Shown here piece by piece: positions 30,044 to 41,010 of a stretch of DNA of 64,000 nucleotides. The notes below the pieces were generated by a model. The model did not search any database, was not told the origin of the DNA, and worked only from the letters and a program-made list of their open reading frames with translations. The stretch is from a bacterium BMS3Abin14 (GTDB taxonomy: Bacteria > BMS3Abin14). Position 1 is the first letter of the stretch; each line of letters begins with the position of its first letter. A program made the translations under genes and the position numbers. Where the stretch lies: NCBI GenBank assembly GCA_002897695.1, contig BDTG01000019.1, positions 62,001 through 126,000 on the forward strand. Direction: 5' to 3'.

Positions 30044-30460
30044 CTACTTCCTGTCCGCTACCTGAACCCTGGTTACCGCTTTTTCCAGGCGCACCTTGGC
30101 CTTCTGATAGGCAGGATCATGTTCACCGGCAGTGATGATCTGTTCAGCCTGTTCCTTGGCTACTTGGGCTCTTGCAAGATTGATATCCGTTGCTTTCTCG
30201 GCCGTCTCGGCCAGGACCATAACCCTGTCGGAAGCCACTTCCACGTACCCCCAGGATACGGCTACGTGCTCAGTCCGGTCTGCGGTACGATAGTTCAGCT
30301 CCCCAACCTTCAGTGCGGTAAGCAAGGGAACGTGCCCCGGCAGAACCCCGAATTCTCCCTCGATTCCGGGAAGAACCACCTCATCCACCTCTGTAGACAC
30401 AACAATACGTTCAGGTGTGACCACCTCCAGAAACAGTTTGTCTTTACTTGACTCGGCCAT
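30044..30460 (-). CDS. atpC: ATP synthase epsilon subunit
   Basis: Epsilon is part of the F1 central stalk and regulates ATP hydrolysis. The 138-residue product has the N-terminal beta sandwich (FLEVVTPERIV, LPGIEGEFGVLPGHVPLLTAL) and a C-terminal helix pair from about residue 95. It is the last gene of the atp operon, 9 bp after atpD. A short GC-rich hairpin (30027-30040) follows without a clear T-tract. Confidence 0.97.
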   Translation of the reverse strand: MAESSKDKLFLEVVTPERIVVSTEVDEVVLPGIEGEFGVLPGHVPLLTALKVGELNYRTADRTEHVAVSWGYVEVASDRVMVLAETAEKATDINLARAQVAKEQAEQIITAGEHDPAYQKAKVRLEKAVTRVQVADRK

Positions 30461-30469
30461 GGCGCGGGA

Positions 30470-32821
<2,352 letters not shown>

Positions 32822-32822
<1 letters not shown>

Positions 32823-34339
32823 TAGTCGTAGACGAACTCGTTTTTGAACTCTTCGAGAGCGGCCTTTATCGCAACCAGAAGATTGTCATCGATTTTTCCT
32901 GTTTCCTTGACATCTTTGAGAATTTCCGGATGGCGGTTTTCCATGAAACTCACCATCTCTCCGGCGTACTTCCCGATAACCTCCACTGGATAACCGTCAA
33001 GATACCCGTTTGTCGCAGAAAAGATGACAAGGACCTGTTTTTCTACCGGCATGGGAACATATTGGTCCTGTTTGAGCACCTCAACAAGACGTTCGCCTCG
33101 AGCGAGCTGCGCCTGGGTTGTTTTGTCAAGGTCGGACCCGAACTGGGCGAATGCCGCCATTTCCCTGTACTGGGCCAATTCCAGGCGCAGCCGGCCTGCA
33201 ACCTGCCGCATTGCTCTGACCTGGGCTGCTCCACCCACCCGGGAAACCGAGATGCCAACGTTGATGGCAGGGCGGACTCCCGAGTAGAACAGATCCGATT
33301 CCAGGAAGATCTGTCCGTCGGTGATGGAGATAACGTTTGTGGGGATATATGCCGAGACATCCCCTGCCTGGGTCTCAATTATGGGGAGCGCCGTCAGGGA
33401 ACCTCCACCGAGATCATCACTCAACTTGGCGGCCCTCTCCAGCAGCCTGGAGTGAAGGTAGAAAACATCTCCCGGGTATGCCTCCCGTCCCGGCGGCCGC
33501 CTGAGGAGAAGGGACATCTGCCTGTAGGCAACCGCATGTTTGGAAAGATCATCATATATGAGGAGCGCGTGCTGCCCATTGTCCCGGAAATACTCTCCCA
33601 TGGCGCATCCTGCAAATGGCGCAATAAACAGAAGCGGCGCCGGCTCGCTCGCGGAGGCGGAAACCACGATGGTATAATCCATAGCCCCGTGCTCATCGAG
33701 GACCGCGATAACCCGCGCAACCGTGGAGTCCTTCTGCCCGATGGCAACATAGATGCAGACAACAGGGTCGTCAGCGTTTTTCTGGTTGATAATGGTATCA
33801 ATGGCAATGGCGGTCTTGCCCGTCTGACGGTCTCCGATGATCAGCTCCCTCTGGCCGCGGCCGATGGGGATCATGGAGTCAACCGGTTTCAGTCCTGTCT
33901 GGAGGGGTTCCCTAACCGGCTGCCTTTTGACAATGCCGGGCGCGATAACCTCAACTAAACGGGTGTTTGTGGTCTCGATGGGCCCTTTCCCGTCTATGGG
34001 CTGCCCCAGAGGATTTACAACCCTCCCCAGCAGTTCCTCGCCGACAGGCACTTCCACGATCCGGCCGGTGCGCTTGACGACGTCACCCTCTTTGATGAGC
34101 TGGTACTCACCAAAAAGAACAATACCGACGTTGTCCTCCTCCAGGTTCAGGATCATTCCGAAGACCTCACCGGGCAGCTCCACGAGTTCTCCGGCCATGG
34201 CGTTTTCAAGACCATGAACCCGGGCGATGCCGTCTCCGGTGGACAGGACGATTCCCGTTTCCTTCACATCGATGGATTTTTCGAACCCCTCGATCTGTTT
34301 TTTGATTATCTCGGTGATCTCTTCCGCTTTAATTTGCAT
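32822..34339 (-). CDS. atpA: ATP synthase alpha subunit
   Basis: The non-catalytic nucleotide-binding F1 subunit, 505 residues. It has the N-terminal crown, Walker [14 protein letters not shown], the VGQKDSTVA segment, [11 protein letters not shown], and the conserved arginine region [13 protein letters not shown]. It starts 5 bp after atpH and overlaps atpG by one base. Confidence 0.98.
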
Positions 34340-34344
34340 TCGGA

Positions 34345-34890
34345 CTATCTCCCCTTGCTAAGGGTATCTTTTAACTCCTGTAGCTGATTGCTTATGCTTC
34401 CGTCGTAAACCCGGCTTCCAACGTAGGCTACCATCCCTCCGAGAATGTTCTCGTCAACTTCAATCTTCAGAATGATCTCCTTGCCCGAGATTTCGGAAAG
34501 CGCGTCATGAATCCTTTTCTTGTCATTATCGCCAAGCGGCGCGGCAACGACCACCCTCGCCCTTATACGATTTTCCCTCAGATCGCAGAGGCGATGGTAC
34601 GCCTCCGAAATTTCACCGATTCCGTCGATCCTGTTCTTTTCAAGCAGTACAAACACGGATTTTCTGGCCGTTTCCCCTATAGCGATCTTTTTGAAAATAC
34701 TGCTCAGGACCTTCTCTTTTGCGTCAAGGGAAACGGTTGGATCGAAAAAGAGGTTCCCCAGGTCGGGGCTTATGGTAAAGAGGCCCGCGACAACTTTAAG
34801 ATCCTCCCCGATTTCGACAACAAGGCCCTTTTCCGTCGCCAGATCTATTATTGCCTGGGCATAACGCTTTGCGAGAACTTGACCGATCAC
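34345..34890 (-). CDS. atpH: ATP synthase delta subunit
   Basis: Delta (OSCP) caps F1 and binds the b stalk. I chose the GTG at 34890, which overlaps the atpF stop as GTGA and has GGAGG about 10 nt upstream. It gives 181 residues beginning [14 protein letters not shown], the typical length; an ATG at 34920 is possible. The six-helix N-terminal domain and C-terminal [20 protein letters not shown]-type motif are visible. Confidence 0.95.
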
Positions 34891-35465
34891 TGCTTGGCTG
34901 CCTCCAGATTGTTCAGACATTCGTCGACAAATCTGCTCTGATCATCAGGGGTTACCCTATCCCGTATGATCTCCTCAGCGATGGCCACTGCCGTTTCGGC
35001 CGCCTCTTTTCTCAGAATTTCCTGCGTTTTTTTCAACTCCTGCAGGATGGACTGTTTGGCCTCTTTTTTAAGCCTTTCCACAGCCTCCTCCGCTTCGCCA
35101 AGAATCCTCTCCTTCTCCATCTCGCTTTCCTGCCTGGCGGTCTTGATAAGCGCGTCCATCTCCTGATCCGCCCGCGCAAGCCGCTCCTCCGCCTCTTTCA
35201 TCTTGATCTCGGCCTGTTGCCTGGAGGCCTCGGCCTCATTGAGCATCTTGCGGACCGATTCTACGCTTCCTCTGATGCCATCGGCAATCGGTTTGCGGGC
35301 AAAGTATATCAGGATCCCCATAAGGATGGCGAAGTTCACGAACCGCATGATGAGATCGTAAATCGAACGCCCTCCTCCGCCATCACCACCCGCGGCCAGG
35401 GAAACGGCCGGGATCGCCAGGCCGCAGGCAAGCAGCAGAATGATCCGGACAGATCTTCTGGACAT
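34887..35465 (-). CDS. atpF: ATP synthase b subunit
   Basis: One of the two stator-stalk proteins. The 192-residue product has an N-terminal hydrophobic segment that looks like a signal sequence (ILLLACGLAIPAVSLAAG), a common feature of deltaproteobacterial AtpF. A membrane helix (residues about 38-56) and a long charged coiled coil follow. The ATG at 35465 shares a base with the b' stop (TGATG); a GTG one codon upstream is an alternative. Its presence with b' suggests a b/b' heterodimer. Confidence 0.95.
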   Translation of the reverse strand: MSRRSVRIILLLACGLAIPAVSLAAGGDGGGGRSIYDLIMRFVNFAILMGILIYFARKPIADGIRGSVESVRKMLNEAEASRQQAEIKMKEAEERLARADQEMDALIKTARQESEMEKERILGEAEEAVERLKKEAKQSILQELKKTQEILRKEAAETAVAIAEEIIRDRVTPDDQSRFVDECLNNLEAAKQ

Positions 35466-35902
35466 CACTCACCGCCCCCCATGGACCGGCCCATCAGCTT
35501 TGAGGCGACCCTGCCGGCCAGGCTCTCCACCTCCGCCTTCAGTGTTTTCCTGGATTCATCGGCCTGAATGGACAATGCCTTTCGAGCGGCATCGAGTTCC
35601 TTCGCATTGTCCGCCTTGGTATCCTGAAGAATCTTGCGGAATCCACCGAGCGCCTCGCTTCGGGATGTCGCCCTTATGGACATGGATTCCTGCTTGGCGG
35701 AAAAAAGTTTAGACTCATATTCAGTGATCTTTTCATCCGCCAGTCCGCCTAACCGCTCCTTGATCTCCGCCGCGTCCTTCACAAGCTTCTCGCGTTCATC
35801 CAGCACCCTGAGGATTGGCTTAAACAGCAAAAAATTGAGAACAACCATCAGAATCAGGAAGTTGGCCAGCTGGACAAGTAAGGTAAAGTTGACGCTAATC
35901 AA
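35465..35902 (-). CDS. atpF': ATP synthase b' subunit (second stator stalk)
   Basis: The 145-residue product begins with a single membrane helix (VQLANFLILMVVLNFLLFKP) and continues as a coiled coil with alternating charge and Ala. This is the b' type that pairs with AtpF in photosynthetic and many deltaproteobacterial enzymes. The start is TTG at 35902 with GGAGG 5 nt upstream. It is separated from atpE by 333 bp holding repeat elements. Confidence 0.92.
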   Translation of the reverse strand: MISVNFTLLVQLANFLILMVVLNFLLFKPILRVLDEREKLVKDAAEIKERLGGLADEKITEYESKLFSAKQESMSIRATSRSEALGGFRKILQDTKADNAKELDAARKALSIQADESRKTLKAEVESLAGRVASKLMGRSMGGGE

Positions 35903-36057
35903 GTGTGCCTCCGCTTACCCGGACAAAAAAACACGCAATATTCGGTTAAAGAATGCATAAAAGTAATAAAACGGTCTTTACCTGTCAACAGTTTTTCCCT
36001 GTCAGGCTGCCACAGGGCTTTATCCCTGTGACAAGGTCGTCAAAAACCATCAACCTT

Positions 36058-36240
36058 TGATGGCTTCGCAAAAAGTCATCAAAGTGCCCGGGGAGGGCGC
36101 CCAAATCAATAGCTTGCAACGCAAGTTGTTGATTTGCAAGGAAAGTAAAAATGACATTTTCCACTTTCCGTTGAGCAAAAAGCCACGAACCTGCCTGTGC
36201 GTTGCACGCAGACAGGTGGACTTTTTGCGACCATATCAAC
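36058..36240. repeat. Intergenic repeat cluster between atpE and atpF'
   Basis: This stretch contains several modules that recur elsewhere in the window. GGCTTCGCAAAAAGTCATCAAAG followed by GCCC (36064-36090) matches the complement of 40790-40815. A segment with GTTGTTGATTTG, GGAAAG, ATGAC and CTTTCCG (36124-36162) matches the complement of 40957-41010. A pair of blocks AAAAAGCCACGAA and TTTGCGACCATATCA (36176-36238) matches the complement of 6081-6119. Between the last two blocks an extra GC-rich hairpin (CCTGCCTGTGCG...CGCAGACAGG) is inserted. It touches the atpE stop codon. Confidence 0.7.
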
Positions 36241-36493
36241 CATTGACCACGAAGATAAGGAGAAGCGCCACCACGAGGGCGTAGATCCCGGTGGACTCGG
36301 AAACAGCCTGTCCCACCAGCATGGTTCGTGTAAGCAGTCCGGCATCGGCGGGATTTTTGCCGATAGCCTCGCAGGCCTTGCCGGCCGCAAAACCCTCGCC
36401 GATTCCCGGGCCAATGGCCCCGAACCCCATGGAGATCCCCGCGCCGAGCAGTGCCGCTGCCCTGATCAATTCCGTCCCGGTAATTCCTGTCAT
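36236..36493 (-). CDS. atpE: ATP synthase c subunit, single hairpin with Na+-type two-carboxylate signature
   Basis: The c subunit forms the membrane rotor ring. The 85-residue product is one helical hairpin with the glycine motif [18 protein letters not shown] in helix 1 and the ion site [11 protein letters not shown] in helix 2. Residues E33 and E66 together with V64, S67, T68 and Y71 match the two-carboxylate Na+-binding motif described for Fusobacterium nucleatum, and differ from the plain Asp/Glu site of H+ enzymes. This predicts Na+ coupling (inference). It lies 44 bp downstream of a second, triple-hairpin c-subunit gene. Confidence 0.97.
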
Positions 36494-36537: not shown

Positions 36538-37281
36538 TTAGCTCAATATTATGAGGACAAAAGCCACAACCATGGCGTAGATGCTTGTCGATTGCGCCAC
36601 CGCCTGGCCCAGAAGCATGACCCTGGTCAGCAGACCTACCGAATTGATCGGGTCCTTGTGGCTTCTGACTCCAATAATGGCCGCCTCCGCCGCTATCCCG
36701 GATCCGATGGATGGCCCTACAGCTCCGAATCCCATACAGAGTCCCGCTGAAAGCATTGCCACAAAATCAACGATGCCGGCATCGGGCCTTGCCGGAAGAA
36801 AGAGCAGCAGAAATGAAACAAGCAATGCGAAAATTACCGGGGTCTGGGTTACCGCCTGGCCTATGAGCATCATGGTGGTGAAGCTGCTCCTGAGATATGG
36901 CTGCCGGGCGATAGCTTCGCAGGCCCGGGCAGCGGGAAACCCCGCCCCCACACCGGAGGCCAAGGACGCCGCCCCGATTGAGAGGCCGGCCCCCAGGGCG
37001 CTGAAACCGTCAATAAGGGGAACTCCGTGATAGTTCCCGAAAAGGAGCAGGATGGCGACCACCAACGCGAAGATACCCGAGGTTTCCGTCACTGCCTGGC
37101 CGACGAGCATGATGCGAAACAGGTCGAAAGAAGTCCCCGGCTGTCTGGAGATACCCAGGGTTGCGCTTCCGGCAGACAGGCCCTCGCCGATTCCCGGGCC
37201 AATGGCACCGAGACCGATTGCCAGGCCGGCCCCCGCCATTGACAGGGCCTTGACGAGCTCCTCGGTTGCGATTAGATCCAT
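36538..37281 (-). CDS. ATP synthase c-subunit fusion of three hairpins, carboxylates only in hairpin 1
   Basis: The 247-residue product contains three tandem F-type c hairpins: residues 1-83, 88-163 and 168-247, each with a glycine-rich first helix and a GQAV second helix, six membrane helices in all. Hairpin 1 keeps the two-carboxylate site (E33, E66 in GQAVTETSGIF). Hairpin 2 has A113 and Q146 (GQAVTQTPVIF), and hairpin 3 has S194 and Q230 (GQAVAQSTSIY). The polar-loop motif RQP is kept in hairpins 1 and 2. V-type and Acetobacterium c1 rotors show similar fusion with loss of sites; a triple form in an F-type operon is unusual. It sits between atpB and atpE and is intact, with no frameshift. 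Confidence 0.93.
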   Translation of the reverse strand: MDLIATEELVKALSMAGAGLAIGLGAIGPGIGEGLSAGSATLGISRQPGTSFDLFRIMLVGQAVTETSGIFALVVAILLLFGNYHGVPLIDGFSALGAGLSIGAASLASGVGAGFPAARACEAIARQPYLRSSFTTMMLIGQAVTQTPVIFALLVSFLLLFLPARPDAGIVDFVAMLSAGLCMGFGAVGPSIGSGIAAEAAIIGVRSHKDPINSVGLLTRVMLLGQAVAQSTSIYAMVVAFVLIILS

Positions 37282-37361: not shown

Positions 37362-38033
37362 CTATTTAGTCGCCACGGCTATATACGTGATCGTGAGCAT
37401 GGTAAAAACGAAAGCCTGGATTGTGCCGACAAAAAGCCCGAAAAATGCGTTAAGAAACGGCGGCAAAACCAGATTATACACCATGTGGGATACCACGATG
37501 ATAATGATGGCTCCCCCCATGATATTGCCGAACAGCCGGAAGGAGATGGATATGACCTTGGCCAGCTCTCCGATAACATTCAGCGGAGCCATCACAAAGA
37601 AGGGTTCAGCGTATTCCTTGAGGTATTTCCCTATCCCTTTTTCCCTGACAGCCGCGAAATGGGTGAGGACAAAACCCATGATCCCGAGGCTCAGCGGTGT
37701 GTTCAGGTCTCTTGTGGGCTCTTCAAGCCCCGGGATGATCCCCAGCCAGTTGCACACGACCAGGAAAACAAACATGGTTGCGATTAGTGGCAGGTAGCCT
37801 CGGCTGGTAGTCTCGAGGGTGTCCCTGACAAGCCTGTCCATGGCGGAAACATAAAGCTCCACTATCCGCTGGAGGGGGCCCGGGATCTGCTTGAGGCCCC
37901 TTGTCGCGAGAAATGCCACGATTACCAGAAAGGCCATAACGAGCCACGTATTAAACAGCGTGGCCGTGTTGACAGTCAGGTGGAGGCCGAACAGATCAAA
38001 CGAATATCTGGGGATGTAGGTCAGATCTGCCAT
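37362..38033 (-). CDS. atpB: ATP synthase a subunit
   Basis: The stator a subunit forms the two ion half-channels against the c ring. The 223-residue product has five to six hydrophobic helices and the essential Arg in the conserved SFRLFGNIMGGAII helix, preceded by NVIGELAKVIS. It lies 7 bp after atpI and 80 bp before the triple c gene. The last helix ends FVFTMLTITYIAVATK, with the conserved QAFVF segment. Confidence 0.96.
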   Translation of the reverse strand: MADLTYIPRYSFDLFGLHLTVNTATLFNTWLVMAFLVIVAFLATRGLKQIPGPLQRIVELYVSAMDRLVRDTLETTSRGYLPLIATMFVFLVVCNWLGIIPGLEEPTRDLNTPLSLGIMGFVLTHFAAVREKGIGKYLKEYAEPFFVMAPLNVIGELAKVISISFRLFGNIMGGAIIIIVVSHMVYNLVLPPFLNAFFGLFVGTIQAFVFTMLTITYIAVATK

Positions 38034-38040
38034 GTCACCA

Positions 38041-38442
38041 TCATCTTTTATCCATTTCGCCCTTCCGGCCTGTACTTCCGGCTAACTCCCCCGCGATGAG
38101 AACTGCCTGGGCAGTGAACAGCGCGGGTATTGCGGCCCCCAGGGCGATCCCTTTCACTGACGCTGCCACAACGAGGGCCGCCCCGGCTGTTGTCATCCTC
38201 AGGGCGTAACGCCCCGCAGCGGACCGCTGCCCTCCGGACCCCACCTTCACGGCGTGCCGAGGTATATGCCCAGCCATGGCGAGGAAATTTACCAGGCTCG
38301 CGGCCCCTCCCAGTGCGGCCCCCTTGGCCCAGGACATATGGCCCATCAGGACAAAAGCACCAACCGAAAGCAGTATTATGGCGAGGGCCCTGAAAAAAAT
38401 CTTCCTGACAAATCCGGCGAATATCTGAACCACACCGCTCAT
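38041..38442 (-). CDS. atpI: ATP synthase I-like protein
   Basis: The 133-residue product has four hydrophobic segments (about residues 15-33, 38-58, 82-98, 103-120), like the AtpI family, which helps c-ring assembly and may take part in Mg2+ handling. Sequence similarity is weak, so the call rests partly on its place as first gene of the atp operon. No AtpZ gene is seen next to it. A dedicated ring-assembly factor fits with the unusual two-type rotor (inference). Confidence 0.75.
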   Translation of the reverse strand: MSGVVQIFAGFVRKIFFRALAIILLSVGAFVLMGHMSWAKGAALGGAASLVNFLAMAGHIPRHAVKVGSGGQRSAAGRYALRMTTAGAALVVAASVKGIALGAAIPALFTAQAVLIAGELAGSTGRKGEMDKR

Positions 38443-40789: not shown

Positions 40790-41010
40790 GGCGCTTTGAT
40801 GATTTTTTTGCAAGGCCACCACACCTGCGCCCGGGGCTACGATCCTGAATCCGGGAAACGTGAAAACTAATATACAGGAAGTGAAATGTCCAAAGAAATC
40901 TCTCTCCCATCGGTCTGTGACAGGATTGCAAAAGGCCCATTCACGGCTTTTGACTCCGCGGAAAGCGCAAAGTGTCATCCTCGCTTTCCTCACAGATCAA
41001 CAACCTGTAT
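40790..41010. repeat. Intergenic repeat cluster between rsmG and parA
   Basis: On the minus strand the block near 41010-40920 (GTTGTTGATCTG, GGAAAGCGAGGATGAC, CTTTCCG, CAAAAGCCGTGAATGG, CTTTTGCAATCCTGTCA) aligns with the block at 36124-36238. A further block at 40815-40790 (CTTGCAAAAAAATCATCAAAG then GCCC) aligns with 36066-36090. The order of the two blocks is swapped between loci. The repeat reaches into the last six codons of rsmG. The remaining bases between 40586 and 40790 hold no recognisable gene. Confidence 0.65.

Follow-up and report, generated by a model that had tools for sequence, protein, structure and literature searches.

The hybrid rotor of Acetobacterium woodii is usually regarded as a rarity of acetogens, and Eubacterium limosum has hybrid c1/c2 subunits of the same kind. 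The A. woodii hybrid F/V ring combines a two-hairpin c1 with single-hairpin c2/c3 subunits (PDB 4bem). Here we describe a gene for a three-hairpin F-type c subunit, called c3 below and distinct from the A. woodii subunit of that name, in a 64,000-nucleotide stretch of contig BDTG01000019.1 from bacterium BMS3Abin14; this whole stretch is referred to as the window. As in A. woodii, the multi-hairpin c gene precedes a single-hairpin c gene in an F-type operon, Glu is found in the first hairpin and Gln in the last, and the ligands are those of the Na+ set. Unlike A. woodii c1, which has two hairpins and one site, the window protein has three hairpins, and its relatives have two to four. Moreover, its first helix carries Glu33 where A. 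woodii c1 has Gln, and seven genera harbor a c3 without any carboxylate. We consider it likely that the F-type c-ring is heteromeric (hybrid) and contains c3 as a spacer subunit, which would lower the number of ions per ATP.

Several other described systems are similar in part. Clostridium aceticum c1 is also a multi-hairpin hybrid c subunit, whose hairpin 1 contains "Q....ET" and whose hairpin 2 contains "QT" (PMC7911925); however, the c1 subunits of C. aceticum and E. limosum have two hairpins, and no site-free form of them is described. Fused hairpins, with ligands lost in some, also occur in the V/A-type c subunits of Enterococcus hirae (NtpK, two hairpins), Methanocaldococcus jannaschii (three) and Methanopyrus kandleri (13) (PMC2359735), but the operons of these lack a single-hairpin F-type partner. 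In addition, NtpK retains its site within the chain, where hairpin 2 has the Glu and hairpin 1 is the donor, whereas the retained c3 site would lie between chains. Finally, the single-hairpin c of the window has all the ligands of the two-carboxylate Na+ c-ring of Fusobacterium nucleatum (PDB 3zk1; E32/V63/E65/S66/T67/Y70 in F. nucleatum numbering), a ring which, in contrast, is a homomeric c11 without a multi-hairpin subunit. The first-pass annotation, made from the window sequence, knew of no description of a three-hairpin, one-site form in such an F-type operon, and we found no three-hairpin F-type c in the literature searched, which was largely limited to open-licence papers.

The c3 gene, its conservation and its single-hairpin partner

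The two c genes and the relevant positions of c3 are as follows.

36538..37281, minus strand: c3, three-hairpin F-type c subunit, 247 amino acids (open reading frame, Pfam, site table, alignment, AlphaFold2)
c3 residues ~8-82: hairpin 1, with E33 and E66
c3 residues ~86-162: hairpin 2, with A113 and Q146
c3 residues ~168-246: hairpin 3, with S194 and Q230; V228, S231, T232 and Y235 retained
37183..37185, minus strand: E33 codon, first of the two carboxylates of hairpin 1 (position calculated from the start codon)
37084..37086, minus strand: codon of E66, predicted ion-binding carboxylate of hairpin 1 (coordinate arithmetic)
36844..36846, minus strand: codon of Q146, lost-carboxylate position of hairpin 2 (site table, alignment)
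36592..36594, minus strand: codon of Q230, lost-carboxylate position of hairpin 3 (site table, alignment)
36236..36493, minus strand: single-hairpin c subunit (atpE), 85 amino acids, with E33, V64, E66, S67, T68 and Y71 and a strong AGGAGG ribosome-binding site

The intact frame of 247 residues with three c-type hairpins, and the residues named in the first-pass annotation at the six site positions, were all recovered. The plus strand of the same interval contains stops. Three stretches of c3 match the Pfam family ATP-synt_C (PF00137), with a total of 133.5 bits (cut-off, 24), while the NCBIfam V-type K models scored far under their cut-offs. An AlphaFold2 model, built from 13 sequences, has six membrane helices forming three hairpins (mean predicted local distance difference test score 93.4, predicted template modeling score 0.88), and structure comparison matches its fold to c subunits. 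Its top solved match is the A. woodii ring c1 chain 4bem_J (1.5 A over 162 columns), followed by the E. hirae V-type K subunit NtpK (2bl2_A, TMt 0.85), and the model superposes sequentially on both; A. woodii c1 is also the best sequence match (E 1.4e-26). The carboxylates of the window c3 are confined to hairpin 1 (E33/E66).

The genes are transcribed in the order parA, parB, bactofilin, atpI, a, c3, single c, b', b, delta, alpha, gamma, beta, epsilon, from atpI onward in agreement with the first-pass annotation. The operon is thus F-type and complete, with a, b, delta, alpha, gamma, beta and epsilon, and not V/A-type, so that c3 is a fused F-type c subunit with lost carboxylates, akin in kind to A. 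woodii c1. Judged by gene content, one multi-hairpin plus one single-hairpin c gene is a layout that fits a hybrid rotor of the A. woodii kind. The two subunits have probably originated independently, since the hairpins of A. woodii c1 group with A. woodii c2 (ultrafast bootstrap [UFboot] 100, or 97 with the site columns masked, in alignments of only 65-73 columns).

Orthologues of c3 were found in all 12 genomes of our phylum sample, which covers one family and 8 genera, with 57-91% identity over the matched part; searching by order, by class or by phylum gave these same 12 genomes each time. Nine of these copies are full-length three-hairpin frames; among the others, one enters a run of N's (G005; genomes are given by our own handles) and two end at a contig edge (G004, G010). 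The genome of the window is fragmented (49 contigs) and yielded no 16S rRNA. The fragmentation could speak for c3 as an assembly join or a decaying pseudogene. That explanation is refuted by the 12 genomes in 8 genera, two of which carry c3 on multi-megabase single contigs, by relatives located in the same place in other phyla, and by a ratio of nonsynonymous to synonymous substitution rates (dN/dS) of 0.09 inside the window's genus. For pairs with a carboxylate-free c3 this ratio is 0.06-0.09, which indicates that the carboxylate-free c3 is under purifying selection as well; both values are comparable to those of subunits a and alpha. A contig pattern scan returned a single locus, L001 (Holophagae), whose match to the peptide NYHGVPLI lies in an unrelated frame and was discarded as due to chance.

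Hairpin 1 reads ETSGIF in the window and STPPTF in the other seven genera, where E33 is replaced by Ile or Met. The carboxylate-free hairpins 1 cluster together (UFboot 99, or 96 after masking of the site columns). Because the window's genus is the first branch in the phylum (UFboot 99% for the rest) and hairpin 1 Glu is present in the closest lineage outside it (G108/G246), the simplest account would be a single loss of the hairpin 1 carboxylates in the common ancestor of these seven genera.

Outside the phylum, 14 of the 374 genomes surveyed gave matches better than 1e-22. Subunits with two (G239, G270), three (G108, G246, G133, G155) and four hairpins (G111, G324, G190, G095) each lie between subunit a and a single-hairpin c, and the relatives in G045 and G150 end at contig edges. 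G108 and G246 make up the whole of one phylum in the set, and in the phylum of G190 the four-hairpin form is present in 4/4 genomes, with one copy cut. These frequencies are a lower bound, since the threshold favors long matches. The number of Glu66-type carboxylates in these two- to four-hairpin relatives is none, one or two. Taken together, blank rotor parts seem to be an ancient means of altering the ion cost per ATP.

The remaining two genomes, G013 (L087 8365-9315) and G300 (L088 8557-9507), which measure ~1.2-1.3 Mb, harbor a divergent four-hairpin c right after subunit a, with E, Q, E and D at the site positions; we recognized neither a single c nor F1 genes nearby. In G095 (L081 8883-9860), hairpins 2 and 3 are almost identical, as after a recent tandem duplication, and hairpin 1 clusters with the single c of the same genome, so gene conversion is possible.

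A single c with an intact site always adjoins c3, and the pair lies between a and b'/b, or directly b. In every genome, the single c has the Na+ ligand set E33, V64, E66, S67, T68 and Y71, position 68 of G270 being the sole exception, and the coupling ion is probably Na+. When the best among all candidate starts was used for both c genes, predicted Shine-Dalgarno pairing was stronger for the single c than for the multi-hairpin c in 18/19 genomes (mean, -11.3 versus -6.7 kcal/mol). This fits a ring with few c3 copies, for which an excess of single c is required.

The window gene, considered by itself, could form a V-type-like ring from c3 subunits only, with an ion site for every three hairpins, the single c being used elsewhere or occasionally. 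Indeed, in the window's genus the Glu half of hairpin 1 and the donor half of hairpin 3 would give complete sites between subunits. However, the c3 of the seven other genera has no carboxylate and is still under purifying selection, and therefore c3 cannot be the sole ring subunit, which rules out such a ring as a general explanation. The ever-adjacent single c, with its intact site and stronger ribosome-binding site, also speaks against it, and we regard it as very improbable. Hence, the earlier count of one site per three hairpins stands for the window gene and not in general, as a rotor of the sister genera needs the single c.

Ordered loss of the ion ligands

We next counted the ligands, in single-c numbering, in 19 complete multi-hairpin subunits (19 first, 21 internal and 19 last hairpins). 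Glu66 is present in 10/19 first hairpins, 1/21 internal hairpins and none of the 19 last hairpins. Conversely, Tyr71 is found in 16/19 last hairpins and in no first (0/19) or internal (0/21) hairpin, and 15 last hairpins, but no first or internal one, have the joint set V64, S67, T68 and Y71. In these alignments, the loss is thus ordered: the first hairpin has the Glu half of a site or nothing, the internal hairpins are blank, and the last hairpin has the donor (Val/Ser/Thr/Tyr) half. From this pattern, and from the NtpK structure, Tyr71 presumably belongs to the donor side.

Each ion site of a Na+ c-ring draws on two hairpins, of which one supplies the Glu and Gln/Glu ligands and its neighbor the Val carbonyl and Ser hydroxyl (PMC2359735, PMC3692424). 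The E. hirae NtpK site is formed by Glu139/Gln110, with the Glu in hairpin 2, together with Thr64 of hairpin 1 (PMC2359735), and therefore hairpin n would donate to hairpin n+1. With the Glu half first, the donor half last and nothing between, sites would be possible between chains and impossible within a chain. It also follows that where hairpin 1 lacks Glu, the donor half of hairpin 3 could be used only by a neighboring single c. The conserved donor half of hairpin 3 in the carboxylate-free c3 is our main sequence evidence and implies a mixed ring.

The same order, Phe and then Tyr, is found along the hairpins of A. woodii c1, which, given its probable separate origin, would lend independent support to this half-site rule. 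In a tree of the hairpins, the first, internal and last groups were weakly supported (UFboot 47-80), and we lean toward common descent of each class.

A putative hybrid ring

According to our model, the ring would consist mainly of the two-carboxylate single-hairpin c encoded downstream, with one or few c3 subunits inserted. Each ion site would be formed by two neighboring hairpins, one giving the Glu half (E33/E66) and the preceding one the Val/Ser/Thr/Tyr half. Contacts inside a multi-hairpin chain would be blank, and the donor half of its last hairpin would complete the Glu site of the next single c, while hairpin 1 of c3 would offer a Glu half in the window's genus and none in the seven sister genera. 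A subunit of n hairpins would then occupy n ring steps but provide at most one site, and per turn and per ATP the ring would carry fewer ions than it has hairpins. Purely as an illustration, an 11-hairpin ring with one c3 would have 9 sites and 3.0 ions per ATP in the window's genus and 8 sites and 2.7 ions per ATP in the sister genera. The mixed ring, its c3 copy number, the coupling ion and the lower ion/ATP ratio are what we infer from this pattern.

Alternatively, c3 could act outside the working ring as an assembly factor, a size template or a regulatory plug. The missing carboxylates in seven genera and the weak translation signals would fit such a minor, non-translocating part. Nevertheless, the last hairpin retains its donor ligands, hairpins 1 and 2 retain a cytoplasmic loop of the Arg-Gln-Pro type, and the solved relative, A. 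woodii c1, sits in the ring of crystal structure 4bem; we thus hold this role to be unlikely. Somewhat less likely still, c3 could be in the ring as a clutch or brake, whose blank sector idles one rotor position and limits one direction, e.g., wasteful ATP hydrolysis, rather than changing the ion/ATP ratio. Up to four blank hairpins in a row (G111) would suffice to leave the interface of subunit a uncharged, but this explanation requires a special kinetic argument.

Several points weigh against the hybrid ring proposed here. Three consecutive blank hairpins would leave the subunit a interface uncharged for about a quarter turn in an 11-hairpin ring, and one E-to-Q change in an engineered c10 fusion of Bacillus PS3 reportedly abolished coupling. 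The ligand rule is not absolute, as the last hairpin of two genera (G006, G008) has Pro/Phe instead of Thr/Tyr, and the 16 last-hairpin Tyr cases are not independent, since last hairpins may share one ancestor. As for the ion, the Na+ motif alone is no proof of Na+ coupling: Sporomusa ovata has it, yet Na+ does not stimulate the ATPase of this species (PMC9430772).

The first-pass annotation had expected such a rotor to favor ATP-driven ion pumping or operation at low ion-motive force. The former agrees with our model, which would also yield more ATP for each ion when the phosphorylation potential is lower. The latter has the direction reversed: with fewer ions per ATP, synthesis at a given phosphorylation potential would need a larger ion-motive force, and the phosphorylation potential that can be sustained falls with n (PMC5662883).

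Operon neighbors, an exchanged cassette and a second Fo set

The other genes of the operon are located as follows.

38041..38442, minus strand: atpI (PF03899)
37362..38033, minus strand: atpB, subunit a, with the essential Arg R166 (SFRLFGN)
35465..35902, minus strand: atpF', subunit b' (PF00430)
34887..35468, minus strand: atpF, subunit b (PF00430)
34345..34920, minus strand: atpH, subunit delta (PF00213)
32822..34339, minus strand: atpA, subunit alpha (PF00006)
31965..32822, minus strand: atpG, subunit gamma (start inferred)
30470..31882, minus strand: atpD, subunit beta (start inferred)
30044..30460, minus strand: atpC, subunit epsilon (start inferred)

Between atpE and atpF' (35985-36240) lies an insertion of ~250 bases resembling a dispersed repeat. 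Pieces of it are also found at 40945-41007 and at other places in the genus; G001 has no insertion between these two genes.

In G006, the segment atpI-a-c3-c-b'-b (L043 2907-6281) is only 70-79% identical to that of G007 (c, 89%), whereas the flanking parA, parB, bactofilin, delta, alpha, gamma and beta are 93-97% identical. Subunits a and c3 of G006 are nearer to G008 (82-89%) than to G007. The Fo cassette was likely exchanged as a block by recombination, an explanation that we prefer to a chimeric contig as the alternative. We count this apparent joint exchange in favor of the hybrid ring.

All near-complete genomes of the phylum except G006 have alpha, gamma, b and b' once each, and all except G008 have subunit a twice. 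One F1/stalk set thus stands beside two a/c sets in 5/7 of them (G000, G001, G002, G007, G011). The second set, which was absent from the first-pass annotation, comprises in G000 (contig C46, L037 8448-10177) an atpZ-like gene, atpI, a second subunit a and a conventional c with a leader peptide, but no F1 genes. This c resembles the Geobacter kind. The set adjoins nuo genes and multihaem cytochromes, an arrangement common to most genomes of the phylum, and its subunit a has the signature GHLAR..RLFGNMFGDH, compared to GELAK..RLFGNIMGG in the operon. An extra divergent second alpha, gamma and b in G006 (G006:C168) and an extra divergent a-c-b cluster in G004 (G004:C88) represent a second enzyme or contamination.

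One might speculate, with considerable doubt, that a single F1 motor is served by two exchangeable Fo rotors, one conventional and one with site-free spacers in its ring, by which the cell could change both which ion is coupled and how many ions are used per ATP. If true, this arrangement would amount to a gear change in an ATP synthase.

Overall, our data suggest that the same hybrid principle, with two, three or four hairpins, is present in at least nine lineages, phylum-wide in one of them and including site-free forms. The rule of a Glu half in front, a donor half at the back and blank hairpins between can be read from sequence and would tell where multi-hairpin subunits sit in the ring. 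It appears that nature has repeatedly changed how many ion sites a turn comprises while ring size stayed the same. How far an ATP synthase tolerates charge-free rotor sectors thereby becomes a directly testable question, and a second question is raised by genomes that combine one F1 with two Fo sets.
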